From Catalinimonas niigatensis (GTDB lineage: Bacteria > Bacteroidota > Bacteroidia > Cytophagales > Cyclobacteriaceae): a DNA stretch of 64,000 nt. The position numbers and the translations under genes were made by a program. The DNA lies in the NCBI RefSeq assembly GCF_030506285.1, contig NZ_CP119422.1, positions 2,852,001-2,916,000 of the forward strand, in the 5' to 3' direction. The notes beneath the pieces are model-generated. The model searched no databases and was not told the origin of the DNA. It was given only the letters and a program-made list of their open reading frames with translations. Below are positions 58,944-63,058 of the stretch, in pieces. The first letter of the stretch is position 1. Every line of letters begins with the position of its first letter.

Positions 58944-58973
58944 AAGTAGCAATTTCCATTGCTACTTTTTTTT
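58944..58973 (+). terminator. Terminator of the Nif3/coiled-coil operon
   Basis: A perfect 9-bp stem, AAGTAGCAA with TTGCTACTT, a 6-nt loop and a run of eight Ts. It isolates the following sigma factor operon. Confidence 0.9.
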
Positions 58974-58991
58974 GTCCGTTAGTGAACATTC

Positions 58992-59020
58992 TTGCACGAT
59001 TACGTACAATCGTTGCAACG
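58992..59020 (+). promoter_or_regulatory. Dyad upstream of the ECF sigma gene
   Basis: TTGCACGATT and AATCGTTGCAA form an inverted repeat with one bulged base around ACGTAC (58992-59018), and CGTTGCAACG at 59011-59020 is a perfect 10-bp palindrome. This pattern before an ECF sigma gene could be an operator or autoregulatory promoter region. TTGCAACG lies about 100 bp upstream of the ATG. Confidence 0.5.
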
Positions 59021-59068
59021 AAGAACTTCATTTTTGCGTCTGTAAACTAACTTAATTTCATGGCACAT

Positions 59069-59107
59069 ATATTGGTAAGATGGGTTTGTCTTACTATATA
59101 CCAATAT
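59069..59107 (+). promoter_or_regulatory. Leader hairpin before the ECF sigma gene
   Basis: ATATTGGTA at 59069-59077 and TACCAATAT at 59099-59107 are perfect 9-bp complements; inside them GTAAGA (59075-59080) pairs with TCTTAC (59089-59094) around TGGGTTTG. The two pairings share GTA, so they could be alternative. The hairpin sits 18 bp before the sigma ATG and could control its translation. Confidence 0.5.
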
Positions 59108-59124
59108 TCTGACCGGCAAATACA

Positions 59125-59799
59125 ATGTTACTCCATCAGCCAACCATTGCCTTAAAGTTCTTATCTCTTTACCGAGTTTTTACTGGCTCCTATCTTGCTT
59201 CCTCCTATAGTAAGTTTAAGCCTAAAGCTTACTATGCCACCACCGAAGAGCAAGACAGCACTTTTTTGCTCAGGCTCAAAGAGCAGGACGAGGAGAAATT
59301 TATGGAGCATCTTTTTCGTACCTATTATGCGCCTCTATGCAAAACTGTATACAACATCACACACGACGCAGATAGTGCCGAAGATATAGTGCAGGATGTT
59401 TTTATGAAAGTGTGGCGGCGCAAAGACCAGATTGACCTGAGCCAGTCTATCAAATCTTATCTTTTTCGCTCCTCCATCAATACTGCACTCAATTACCTGG
59501 AGAAAAACCGGAAAAATATTTCTATGGAAGAAGTTACGCCTGACCCTGTTCAGTACAGCAGTAATGCTACTGAAGAGAGCCTAAGGTATCAGGAAGTAAG
59601 CCAGCGTATTGACCTGGCAGTACAATCTCTTCCTCCCAAATGCCGCACTGTGTTTGCCTTAAGCCGCTTTGAAGAACTAAGCTATGCTGAAATAGCAGGG
59701 CAGCTAAGCATCTCTGTCAAAGCTGTAGAAAAACATATGGGAAAGGCGCTCAAGCTCATGCGGGAGCATTTACAAAGTTTTATTAACCATTCAGCTTAA
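59125..59799 (+). CDS. ECF-type RNA polymerase sigma factor
   Basis: A 224-residue sigma factor. Region 2 is visible as EEKFMEHLFRTYYAPLC and DSAEDIVQDVFMKVWRRK, and region 4 as LPPKCRTVFALSRFEELSYA with SISVKAVEKHMGKALKLM. It belongs to the Bacteroidota sigma-70 ECF group regulated by FecR-like anti-sigmas. The first 45 residues have no family similarity and the ATG at 59125 is the only ATG start; a TTG at 59266 could instead begin just before region 2. Located directly upstream of the FecR gene in one operon, so it is activated through it. Confidence 0.9.
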   Translation: MLLHQPTIALKFLSLYRVFTGSYLASSYSKFKPKAYYATTEEQDSTFLLRLKEQDEEKFMEHLFRTYYAPLCKTVYNITHDADSAEDIVQDVFMKVWRRKDQIDLSQSIKSYLFRSSINTALNYLEKNRKNISMEEVTPDPVQYSSNATEESLRYQEVSQRIDLAVQSLPPKCRTVFALSRFEELSYAEIAGQLSISVKAVEKHMGKALKLMREHLQSFINHSA

Positions 59800-59863
59800 T
59801 TTTTTTCTAATCAAGGTAGGGTAAAGTAGTTCTCACCTGTATTAATGATAGTTGGAAAGATTT

Positions 59864-60895
59864 ATGGGACAAGCTCAAGAAGATATCTGGTTACTTGTGG
59901 CTAAACACCTCAGCGATGACCTTTCTGAAAAGGAAGAAGAAAAACTTCAGTCCTGGAAAGAACATCATCCTGACAACCAGGCTACTTTCGATCAGATGCT
60001 ACGCATGTGGGAACAAACACCGCGCCCTGCTGAAAACTATCAACCGGAGATAGACAAAGGCTGGCAACGTTTCAAATTCCGCATGGACAGCGAAGCAACG
60101 CACTATGAGCAGGCAGCAGTAAAAAAGAAACCTGCTGCACGCATCGTGAGCTTCAGCTATCAGCAACTGGCGGCCGTCGCGGCTTCTATCGTACTTCTAT
60201 TGTCTGTAGGCATCTGGTGGTGGAATATGTCAGGTGAACCTTATATGATCTCACAAAATACCGCAGAAGGTGAACGCAAAATGGTATGGCTGCCTGATAG
60301 TAGCCAGGTATGGCTGAATGAAAGCAGCCAGTTGAGCTATGCAGAAAGTTTCAATGTAGATCATCGGGTAGTGCACCTGAGCGGCGAGGCTTTCTTTGAG
60401 GTCAAAGAGGCAGAAGGGAGAAGGTTTACCATTTTCAGCGAAGGCTCTAAAACTGAAGTGATTGGTACTTCCTTCAACCTGCAGGCTTATCCGGATACTC
60501 CTGTCAAGGTGCAGGTAGTAAGCGGAAAAGTAGCATTTTCACCGGCTGATGATGACAATGCCGTGTTCCTGGAGCCTGGTTATGAGGCAGTATTGTACCA
60601 AGAAAAACAAATAGTGCAGGAGAAAGCGTTAATAGAAGACCCAAATTTCCGGGCCTGGCAAAATCAGCACATACAGTTTCAGAATACCAGCCTCACAGAA
60701 GTAATTGACATACTAGAAGACATTTACCATACGGATATAGAATTTATCAATCCCGATCTGGCCAACTGCCGTTATACAGCAACTTTTGATGGAGCCAATT
60801 TGCAGGAAGTTCTGCACATTCTCTCTGTCACCGGAGATCTTTCTTTTGAGCAGCAAGGCACAAAATACCTGCTCTCCGGACAAGGTTGCCAATAA
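59864..60895 (+). CDS. FecR-family anti-sigma factor
   Basis: From the ATG at 59864 (a TTG lies four codons earlier) it is 343 residues. A cytoplasmic N-terminal part with a helical anti-sigma region, one transmembrane segment near 103-120 (LAAVAASIVLLLSVGIWWW), then the periplasmic FecR domain (AEGERKMVWLPDSSQVWLNE, LSGEAFFEVKEAEGRRFTIF, VIGTSFNLQAY) and a C-terminal DUF4974-like segment with FQNTSLTEVIDILEDIY. It holds the upstream sigma factor at the membrane until a signal is passed from the outer membrane. The next gene supplies the signalling STN domain. Confidence 0.92.
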   Translation: MGQAQEDIWLLVAKHLSDDLSEKEEEKLQSWKEHHPDNQATFDQMLRMWEQTPRPAENYQPEIDKGWQRFKFRMDSEATHYEQAAVKKKPAARIVSFSYQQLAAVAASIVLLLSVGIWWWNMSGEPYMISQNTAEGERKMVWLPDSSQVWLNESSQLSYAESFNVDHRVVHLSGEAFFEVKEAEGRRFTIFSEGSKTEVIGTSFNLQAYPDTPVKVQVVSGKVAFSPADDDNAVFLEPGYEAVLYQEKQIVQEKALIEDPNFRAWQNQHIQFQNTSLTEVIDILEDIYHTDIEFINPDLANCRYTATFDGANLQEVLHILSVTGDLSFEQQGTKYLLSGQGCQ

Positions 60896-60922
60896 GTAAG
60901 TACTATTTAATTTACAAAGACT

Positions 60923-62770
60923 ATGAAATTGGCTACGATCATTCATATGGCCTGGCTTTGCCTGGCGCTTCATACCCCTACACAGGACAATCTCCTCCAC
61001 CAAAAGGTAAACCTGAGTTATCAGGAAGCCAGCATCGTGGAGGTATTGCAGCATATCCAGCAAGAATATGATATTCGCTTCTCTTATCTGAATAACGAGA
61101 TACCTGAAGATGTAAAGGTAAATATCAATATGCAGGACCAGCCGCTTTATTTGGCGCTGGATAAAATTCTGGAAGAAACGACACTTTCTTATCAAGTTGT
61201 AAGTGGTCAGGTAATTTTGAAGAAAGATGTACAAAAAGCAAAAAAGGAAAGTAAACCAAAACCAGCACTTGGAGAAGGCAAGCCTGACAGAGAAAGAAGT
61301 TCATCTGCAATCAAGCCTGAGCCAGCAAAAAAAGTTAAATCCGATACACTTGCCCAACAGGCTACAGATGAAACAGCTACAGTATCTATCAGTAAAAGCC
61401 AGCAATCGGTGAGTAGGCTTCCTTCAGAAAAAGTAAAAATTAACGTTGAAGAAAAGGATGAGCTTACTGAAAAAATAATGCCCGCTCCGGCTGCTGAGGA
61501 AAATAAAAGACCTGTCATTCCGACTAATAAAAAAGAAGAGAAGACCAAACTGGGAGAAAAATTTAAGCACGTAGGTTTGGGGCTCAGAAAACTATTCCAG
61601 CGTATGCCGGGAGAAGATAAGGATGATTATGAAAGAAGAAGCTTTCATTTAGGAATTATCTATCCTCTGAGTACCAATGGTACAGACGCAGGTAAATACG
61701 TGAATGAGTTTTCTCTGCATTGGCTGGTAGGCTATGCTGCCGGATTGGATGGCGTAGAGTTTTCGGGTTTCGGCAACATTGAAAATGACTTTGTAAAAGG
61801 TGTTCAGTTTGCCGGCTTTTTTAACGTCGTAAAAAACAATGTAAACGGAGGACAGTTCGCTGGCTTTCTGAATGTCAATGGCGGAAACTTGGAGGGTGCA
61901 CAATTTGCAGGCTTTATCAATACAGCAGTGGGCGAGGTAGATGGGGTACAGGGAGCAGGTTTTATAAATATGGCAACTGGTTACACCAATGGGGCACAGT
62001 TTGCGGGGTTTATGAATGTAATTACCGATGACGCAGAAGGTATTCAGGGTGCGGGCTTTGCCAACTTTGCTTCAGGAAACATAGCAGGTGCGCAGCTTGC
62101 TGGTTTTATCAACTACAGCCATGATGTAAATGTGCAATTGTCAGGTTTTATGAATGTAGCCTCTGGCGATGTCAAGGGATTACAGGGTGCTGGTTTTATC
62201 AACATCGCCCGGAATGTAAGGGGCGCCCAGTTAGGTGTTTTTAACGTAGCAGATAGCGTTGATGGCGTACCCGTTGGTTTCTTAAGCATAGTCCGCAAAA
62301 ACGGCTATCGTAAGCTGGAAGTATGGGGAGGGGAAACTTTACATACCAATGTTGGCTTTAAAATAGGAGTAGAAAAATTCTATAACATCTTTGCTTTCGG
62401 CTCACAGTTTGCTGCTGAAAACTTCAGATGGGGCTTCGGATATGGAGCAGGTACACAGATCGGACTTACTTCACGAGACTACCTTAATATTGACCTGATG
62501 AGTTTTCAGATTCAGGAAGATGGAGATCGGATATTTGAGGAGACAGAACTCAACCTGCTCAATACATTGAGGATCGCTTATACCCATCAGTTCTCAGAGC
62601 ACTTTAGCCTTTTTGTAGCACCTACTTTCAACGTTATGGTATCTCAAAGGCAGAATGGAGTAGACGGCAACATTGGGACTGACATTGCTCCCTGGACTGT
62701 TTTTGATAAAACTTATACAGATACGAATGTACAAATGTGGCCTGGCTTCCATCTAGGCCTAAGATTTTAG
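60923..62770 (+). CDS. STN-domain protein fused to a LA_2272-like surface repeat domain
   Basis: A 615-residue exported protein. Signal peptide (MKLATIIHMAWLCLAL), then an STN (secretin/TonB short N-terminal) domain at about 28-97 (SYQEASIVEVLQHIQQEYDI ... GQVILKK), as in transducers that talk to FecR proteins. A 130-residue Lys/Glu/Ser-rich linker follows. Then about 9 GGxFAGFxN-type repeats at residues 280-455 (GVQFAGFFNVV, GGQFAGFLNVN, GAQFAGFINTA ...), matching the LA_2272-family surface repeat, and a C-terminal beta-strand-rich end (HLGLRF). In standard systems this place is held by a TonB-dependent receptor; none is here. The signal, if any, would be sensed by the repeat domain. Confidence 0.85.
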   Translation: MKLATIIHMAWLCLALHTPTQDNLLHQKVNLSYQEASIVEVLQHIQQEYDIRFSYLNNEIPEDVKVNINMQDQPLYLALDKILEETTLSYQVVSGQVILKKDVQKAKKESKPKPALGEGKPDRERSSSAIKPEPAKKVKSDTLAQQATDETATVSISKSQQSVSRLPSEKVKINVEEKDELTEKIMPAPAAEENKRPVIPTNKKEEKTKLGEKFKHVGLGLRKLFQRMPGEDKDDYERRSFHLGIIYPLSTNGTDAGKYVNEFSLHWLVGYAAGLDGVEFSGFGNIENDFVKGVQFAGFFNVVKNNVNGGQFAGFLNVNGGNLEGAQFAGFINTAVGEVDGVQGAGFINMATGYTNGAQFAGFMNVITDDAEGIQGAGFANFASGNIAGAQLAGFINYSHDVNVQLSGFMNVASGDVKGLQGAGFINIARNVRGAQLGVFNVADSVDGVPVGFLSIVRKNGYRKLEVWGGETLHTNVGFKIGVEKFYNIFAFGSQFAAENFRWGFGYGAGTQIGLTSRDYLNIDLMSFQIQEDGDRIFEETELNLLNTLRIAYTHQFSEHFSLFVAPTFNVMVSQRQNGVDGNIGTDIAPWTVFDKTYTDTNVQMWPGFHLGLRF

Positions 62771-62804
62771 ATTATATCGCTAACCCAATTTAACCTTTTT
62801 AGTC

Positions 62805-62948
62805 ATGAAGAGATTCACTACTGTTCGTAATTATTTAATGATAGTCAACATGAGCTATGCCCGGGGATGGGAAGAATCCATACGCACATTTGACGAAGTT
62901 GAGAAAAATGTAAGAAAGAGGAAGAGGGCAGCTGTGCAGATGAATTAG
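62805..62948 (+). CDS. Small basic hypothetical protein
   Basis: A 47-codon frame starting at the ATG at 62805 and ending just before the strong terminator at 62971. It begins MKRFTTVRNYLMIVNMSYAR and ends in a basic KRKRAAVQMN tail. Its position between the STN gene and the terminator, and its own ATG, support a real small gene of the sigma operon, but I know of no family and the sequence gives no function. Confidence 0.4.
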   Translation: MKRFTTVRNYLMIVNMSYARGWEESIRTFDEVEKNVRKRKRAAVQMN

Positions 62949-62970: not shown

Positions 62971-63004
62971 AAGTCAGAAGTTCTACTAAGCTTCTGACTT
63001 TTTT
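62971..63004 (+). terminator. Terminator of the sigma/FecR/STN operon
   Basis: A perfect 10-bp stem, AAGTCAGAAG with CTTCTGACTT, around a 10-nt loop, then TTTTTT. It closes the operon before the SDR gene. Confidence 0.9.
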
Positions 63005-63058
63005 ATTTGTTCCCCTGCCTTTTCCAAAACCTCTCTTTACCTGCACAGTTACTGATGT

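Follow-up and report, generated by a model that had tools for sequence, protein, structure and literature searches.

FecR-type switches are usually read as reporters of TonB-dependent import. In the FecI-FecR-FecA, FoxI-FoxR-FoxA and PupI-PupR-PupB systems, an extracytoplasmic function (ECF) sigma factor and a FecR anti-sigma factor are combined with an outer-membrane protein carrying an STN signalling domain, and PMC11637429 describes how STN docks onto FecR in the Fox and Pup systems. Another arrangement, the Dma layout, is described for Bacteroides in PMC13088901. Here we report a locus of Catalinimonas niigatensis located in the window, i.e., the 64,000-nucleotide stretch of DNA analysed as a whole (bases 2852001-2916000 of one 7.13 Mb contig), in which an ECF sigma gene, a FecR gene and a gene for a third protein stand in a row (Table 1). 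According to its structural model, the third protein combines an STN-type domain with a small outer-membrane-type barrel. The reading that we favour, with a probability of about one half, is that the locus encodes a switch for cell-surface signalling in which something other than a TonB receptor acts as the outer-membrane transducer. A search of open-licence PMC papers, including passages of PMC13088901, PMC9249621 and PMC11637429, brought up no FecR system in which STN is carried by a partner that is not a receptor; subscription papers and preprints lay outside its scope.

The two regulatory genes were recognised above the respective cut-offs. The sigma factor matches Sigma70_r2 (48.3 bits) and Sigma70_r4_2 (60.1 bits) of Pfam, as well as TIGR02985 of NCBIfam (157.7 bits; cut-off 126.4). 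The FecR protein matches FecR (52.6 bits) and FecR_C (59.3 bits), while DUF4880 remains below its cut-off (18.7 bits vs 25), and one hydrophobic segment of the transmembrane type is present. Thus, several of the features that define cell-surface signalling are found: the ECF gene lies beside a FecR-type gene, the FecR protein has one transmembrane helix and an STN-like C-terminal domain, and the partner carries an STN signalling domain. A further feature, a partner that is a TonB-dependent receptor with a plug and a 22-strand barrel, is not found here. The order ECF sigma, FecR and STN protein, regarded as normal in the preliminary description of the locus, was confirmed, and the three genes are consecutive.

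The assignment of the STN domain requires some care. In the third protein, both STN (17.3 bits; cut-off 28.4) and FecR_C (19.3 bits; cut-off 24.4) are below the Pfam thresholds, and the STN call therefore rests on the relatives and on the fold. STN was matched at E ≤ 0.01 in 22 of the 32 rows of alignment A1, the window protein included; at the same threshold FecR_C was found in 15 rows and CarbopepD_reg_2 in 19. The window protein has a low-complexity linker where its relatives have the CarbopepD_reg_2 middle domain. As for the fold, the AlphaFold2 model, built from a 57-row alignment, has a mean pLDDT (predicted local distance difference test) of 85.2 and a pTM (predicted template modelling) score of 0.64, and it consists of an STN-type domain, a mostly disordered tether, a repeat-built beta-helix and an eight-strand outer-membrane-type barrel. 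Structural alignment by VIA-align placed the first of these on 6ovk chain B, which we take to be the signalling domain of PupB, with a Z score of 9.4; the scores against the secretin domains 4av2 (Z 9.2) and 3gr5 (Z 9.0) are nearly equal, as expected for STN. The repeat region, whose modelling had been proposed in the preliminary description, was superimposed on the beta-helical 3p4g_D with a root-mean-square deviation (rmsd) of 2.6. These fold assignments rest on VIA-align, which covers listed folds; Foldseek gave no match of the model in the PDB at E ≤ 0.001, the best one being a porin at 9.5e-3.

No match to Plug or to a receptor-barrel family was found by Pfam at E ≤ 1 in the third protein, and its model contains neither. 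The preliminary description, in which both plug and barrel were said to be missing, was accordingly right about the plug and the receptor-type barrel, but the model does contain a small barrel of eight strands. The C-terminal residues, GFHLGLRF, are of the kind that marks outer-membrane barrels, and the hydrophobic residues 1-19 read as a signal peptide. Ten GFxN units were counted, spaced by 16 residues with one gap of 14, whereas 2000 shuffles of residues 236-460 gave a mean of 0.4 and a maximum of 4. Thus, the repeats, earlier described as nine copies of GGxFAGFxN, are real, but the literal motif occurs once. Their assignment to the LA_2272 type could not be upheld, the score for NF047436 being 15.0 bits against a cut-off of 25, and this is a resemblance, not membership. 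They had also been taken for surface repeats; the beta-helix is probably periplasmic instead, because eight strands together with a C-terminus in the periplasm would place it on that side.

A clear contrast is seen between this locus and the other FecR genes of the same genome. Thirty FecR matches were found, all above the cut-off. Within the 1.5-kb surroundings, 28 of these genes are followed by an open reading frame (ORF) resembling SusC or TonB-dependent transporters (TBDT), one by the contig end and one, that of the window, by the repeat protein. For the gene at the contig end, a receptor-sized frame with STN starts at the other end of the contig, which fits a circular chromosome.

The same trio was also found in other genomes, where the preliminary description had suggested looking for it. 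When the genome of the window and those of 58 relatives were searched (59 in all), 43 gave matches at E ≤ 0.001, many of them STN-only matches to receptor-sized frames, and the A1 profile matched 111 of 247 genomes drawn from the phylum at E ≤ 1e-10, receptors and stand-alone repeat proteins included. A set of 51 loci (denoted by L numbers, and genomes by G numbers) was compiled: the region of the window, 40 regions picked by hand among the matches listed for the 59 genomes, and 10 loci from the narrower A2 profile, from which the named relatives come. Receptors matched through STN alone and some of the weaker repeat matches were passed over in the picking, and L087 and L090, duplicates of L049 and L050, were dropped from the 12 loci of A2. 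The repeat protein directly follows a FecR gene in 38 of the 51 loci, and in 36 of these 38 an ECF gene lies on the same strand at most three genes upstream. The 38 trio loci are not independent, since they include three from the window's genus, four from Adhaeribacter, two from Sporocytophaga, three from G040 and two each from G017 and G029. A chance neighbourhood was rejected as an explanation on account of this recurrence. In the other 13 loci, no FecR gene directly precedes the repeat protein. A second repeat protein occurs within three genes after the first one in five trio loci (L053, L057, L061, L066 and L076), and in L057, L061 and L076 it precedes a receptor.

According to the preliminary description, its model would be undone by a TonB receptor gene adjacent to the trio in relatives. 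Such genes do occur: a receptor-like gene lies in the same gene run in 17 of the 38 trio loci (14 of the TBDTa kind and three linked to DUF4249), but no STN was found on these receptors, so the signalling domain is still located on the repeat protein. None of 169 control genes located more than 5 kb from the repeat gene matched the receptor queries at 100 bits, a control that uses the same three queries, picked from trio neighbourhoods, and speaks for those receptor types only. The rule passes over L072, where an ORF on the opposite strand breaks the run, and L074, where the receptor is on the opposite strand. Among seven of the 17 receptors compared with Pfam, Plug was above the cut-off in L049, L051, L058 and L063 and just below it in L079, L088 and L093; a receptor-barrel family was matched in L058 only, and STN in none. 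The identity of the other ten and their lack of STN rest on phmmer. An 843-aa protein of L052, at one time taken for a TBDT from its CarboxypepD domain, is DUF5686 according to Pfam and was not counted. In L150, L154, L157 and L159, free-standing TBDTa receptors lie beside genes that, judged by eye, resemble a LytTR-type response regulator and sensor.

At the window's own locus no such receptor was found. In L049, whose flanks are like those of the window, an 848-aa receptor (CarboxypepD, Plug) is located between the third gene and a gene resembling that of the short-chain dehydrogenase/reductase (SDR). This receptor is 60% identical to the one at the same place in L051, which belongs to another family, whereas the closest copies in the window's genus share 42-45% identity with it. 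The tree unites the receptors that lie in the operons of L049, L051 and the four Adhaeribacter in a single clade (support 100/99), to which the window's genus contributes no sequence, while the operon receptors overall do not form a single clade (15 rows, 2 changes). A receptor further downstream in the window was considered and rejected: a terminator-like hairpin follows the small ORF described below, and the next three same-strand genes of at least 80 aa match no receptor query. The two nearest receptors of the genome were likewise rejected as displaced partners, since the tree groups them with paralogues of G026, a relative of the same family, though one of them may have taken over the role.

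The small ORF of 47 aa provides a clue to this absence. The preliminary description had noted a small basic ORF after the third gene, and it is real and intact in all three sampled species of the genus. It matches the N-terminus of the L049 receptor (40% identity, E 2e-6). Beyond the genus and G026, its matches are at chance level (E ≥ 0.17), and the search found none in G040, the genome of L051; the likeness of a similar ORF in L051 and of the receptor leaders in L088 and L091 was seen by eye only. Among the three species, differences in the small ORF amount to 0.51-0.64 at codon position 3 and 0.09-0.19 at position 2, the corresponding values for the third gene are 0.51-0.57 and 0.12-0.18, and the same concentration at third positions is seen in the ECF and FecR genes. 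Because of the synteny, the tree and the homology of the small ORF to the receptor leader, it is well supported on comparative grounds that the window's genus, as far as its three sampled species represent it, has lost the receptor, and this would be the simplest history.

As several arrangements indicate, the STN domain belongs in some loci to the receptor and in others to the repeat protein. L147 has the order ECF, FecR, STN receptor (887 aa) and DUF4249, and L149 has FecR, STN receptor and DUF4249 at the start of a contig; no repeat protein was found in either. For the L147 receptor, the one of these two compared with Pfam, STN scores 27.8 bits (cut-off 28.4) and FecR_C 26.1 bits (cut-off 24.4). 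In L063 the order is ECF, FecR, STN-repeat protein, STN-less receptor and DUF4249, while in L058 and L089 ECF and FecR are separated by the receptor and DUF4249. The Sporocytophaga operon receptors of L093 and L096 group (100/100) with the 899-aa receptor of L146, which bears its own STN and has no ECF or FecR match within its 15-kb region. A minimal variant was found in L180 (4678-5817), where ECF and FecR are followed by a 379-aa protein with OMP_b-brl_2 (31.6 bits; cut-off 27), sub-threshold STN and FecR_C, and no beta-helix repeats. Two other STN fusions were noted after ECF-FecR pairs: a 789-aa STN-CarboxypepD protein in L148 (6349-8718), with a metallopeptidase-type HExxH motif recognised by eye, and a 468-aa protein in L179. 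Finally, in L075 (5634-8190) the ECF gene is followed by a one-piece protein with an N-terminal helix, an anti-sigma-like, transmembrane-type segment (62-80), about 210 low-confidence residues, and the same kind of beta-helix and barrel as in the window's third protein, and with neither FecR nor STN. Its AlphaFold2 model is weak in the N-terminal half (mean pLDDT 66.1). The N-terminal 220 residues, compared with 11 genomes of its family, matched its own genome only. This Dma-like layout is the single case in this analysis.

Taken together, the domains, the model and its fold matches, STN in the relatives, the recurrent trio, the exceptional place of this locus among the 30 FecR genes of the genome, the receptor loss, the third-position changes and the variants L147, L149 and L180 are the grounds for favouring a switch with a non-receptor transducer. 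The best reading is that a separate outer-membrane protein has taken over the signalling domain of the receptor, and that in the window's genus the switch runs without a dedicated receptor. In this mechanism, the third protein would be exported and its barrel inserted in the outer membrane, and the periplasmic beta-helix and the flexible tether would bring STN to the STN-like C-terminal domain of FecR at the inner membrane, by analogy with the tether of Dma, which is thought to span the periplasm. What the barrel or helix feels might be a change in the state of the outer membrane, the binding of a partner or, in relatives, a receptor that has been loaded. An altered STN-FecR contact would then lead to cleavage or release of FecR, and the freed sigma factor would transcribe its own operon and its targets. 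Deletion of the receptor gene in the window's genus would have left this switch in place. The proposal in the preliminary description that the system senses something other than an imported ligand is consistent with the recurrence of the trio, the hydrophobic N-terminal segment, the modelled barrel and a domain of the FecR-docking type, but it is weakened by the receptor-like gene adjoining in 17 of the 38 trio loci.

Several results count against this reading. The window protein does not reach the curated cut-off of Pfam STN (PF07660), and the membrane side of the beta-helix is one that we infer. In L050, an STN-repeat protein lies on a 6.1-kb contig where neither FecR nor ECF was matched. 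Apart from a single promoter-like site, no regulon of the sigma factor was found in the 7.13 Mb genome. Most directly, where a receptor-like gene adjoins, the third protein may be a subunit of the receptor and not a free sensor; in those relatives the STN-less receptor seems to be either a partner of the switch or one of its outputs. A split TonB transducer, in which the third protein is an accessory subunit carrying the signalling domain for an STN-less TonB receptor in trans, is thus a possibility to be taken seriously, although we consider it less probable. The difference between 17 of 38 trio loci and 0 of 169 distant genes speaks for it, stand-alone repeat proteins also precede such receptors (L059 and L098), and receptors of both kinds are involved; nevertheless, the rule used finds none of them in the other 21 trio loci, and the window's genus has apparently lost its receptor, yet the trio is intact in three species. 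For the window species, this explanation would need a receptor now encoded elsewhere, such as the 45%-identical copies at G000:C1:3227840 or 3353874, yet the remaining receptor homologues of the genus group with the G026 paralogues, outside the operon clade.

It is rather unlikely that the repeat protein is a mere output of the sigma factor, i.e., an envelope protein whose STN-like domain has another role such as oligomerisation. STN domains do contact one another in secretins, according to PMC11637429, and the 13 repeat proteins without a directly preceding FecR gene, one of them with STN (L050), would suit this idea. However, the protein directly follows FecR in the trio loci, just as the SusC-like genes do in this genome, and L147 and L149, for which a repeat protein was not found, carry STN on the receptor. 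Very improbable, and disfavoured here, is a decaying remnant that lost its receptor and is itself on the way out; the apparent loss in three species and the leader-like ORF left alone agree with it, but in the three species the ORFs are intact and differ mainly at third codon positions, and the terminator-like hairpin has been kept.

Table 1. Positions (in window coordinates) of the features of the ECF-FecR-STN locus
Feature	Position	Strand	Basis
ECF sigma factor, 224 aa	59125..59799	+	Pfam and NCBIfam above cut-off
FecR anti-sigma factor: N-terminus, transmembrane-type segment 106-124, FecR, FecR_C	59852..60895	+	Pfam, hydrophobicity
STN / beta-helix / barrel protein (third gene), 615 aa	60923..62770	+	AlphaFold2 model, relatives
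STN-type signalling domain, residues 26-108	60998..61246	+	VIA-align Z 9.4, 80 residues, rmsd 2.2 to 6ovk_B
Tether, mostly disordered, residues 114-202	61262..61528	+	pLDDT <50 over 114-182 and 190-202
Beta-helix of 16-residue GFxN repeats, residues 235-459	61625..62299	+	VIA-align Z 19.0, 218 residues to 3p4g_D
8-strand outer-membrane-type barrel, C-terminal Phe, residues 460-615	62300..62767	+	VIA-align Z 12.0-13.5 to OprF, NspA, OmpA barrels
47-aa ORF, homologue of the L049 receptor's leader	62805..62948	+	Sequence match, codon-position pattern
Terminator-like hairpin and T run	62971..63005	+	Read by eye; conserved in L047, L048
Candidate promoter element upstream of the ECF gene	58971..58994	+	Upstream alignment: kept in the genus's three species, partly in L049
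Imperfect palindrome ATATTGGTA...TACCAATAT, possible operator or 5' hairpin	59069..59107	.	Read by eye

The start at 58992 given in the preliminary description falls in the upstream region and not at the ECF ORF; for the FecR gene, an alternative ATG start exists at 59864. The locus is preceded by genes for a NIF3 protein and a zinc-ribbon protein and followed by an SDR gene, and the flanking genes are alike in size and start in the congeners L047 and L048 and in L049. The core of the palindrome (TATTGGTA and TACCAATA) before the ECF gene is retained in the alignment of L047 and L048; in L049 it reads TTGAT...ATCAA, which could be a compensatory change relative to TATTGGTA...TACCAATA of the window. 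The candidate promoter element occurs as a single copy in the genome at up to two mismatches, which would be compatible with autoregulation, judging from the sequence, and is uninformative on other targets. DUF2807 (head GIN) genes recur beside the loci, in L088 (4038-4766), L091, L092, L095, L051 and L097, their identity resting on Pfam for L088 and on phmmer for the others; in the four Adhaeribacter, the DUF2807 gene lies between ECF and FecR.

If the signalling domain can part from the receptor and act from an eight-strand barrel protein, other ECF/FecR pairs of Bacteroidota may also sense something else, and the receptor-less genus would be a clean setting for finding the minimal outer-membrane part that drives such a switch. 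More speculatively, and at a strength below that of the favoured reading, the helix-barrel could be a general TonB-independent outer-membrane sensor cassette of Bacteroidota, wired via STN and FecR in the window or via a one-piece anti-sigma factor in L075. FecR-type switches could then report the outer-membrane state, not nutrient import alone.

With the SusC-type receptors that accompany ECF-FecR pairs, the third gene shares the position after FecR; unlike them, its product has no receptor part. With the Fec, Fox and Pup systems, the locus shares the side-by-side ECF sigma gene, the single-pass FecR with an STN-like C-terminal domain and the outer-membrane STN protein, whereas a disordered tether, a beta-helix and an eight-strand barrel occur in place of the plug and receptor barrel. 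The anti-sigma family of Dma is defined by a cognate sigma factor of group ECF21 and by an anti-sigma domain, a transmembrane helix, a disordered tether and an outer-membrane barrel in one polypeptide; at the window's locus these four parts are not in a single chain. The two systems nevertheless have in common that the ECF sigma factor is governed by an anti-sigma system with a long disordered tether leading to a terminal outer-membrane barrel. In the window, FecR and the STN protein are separate chains, the break lying in the periplasm, and a beta-helix precedes the barrel. The locus would also connect signalling through receptors with the Dma family, whose members span both membranes as one protein.

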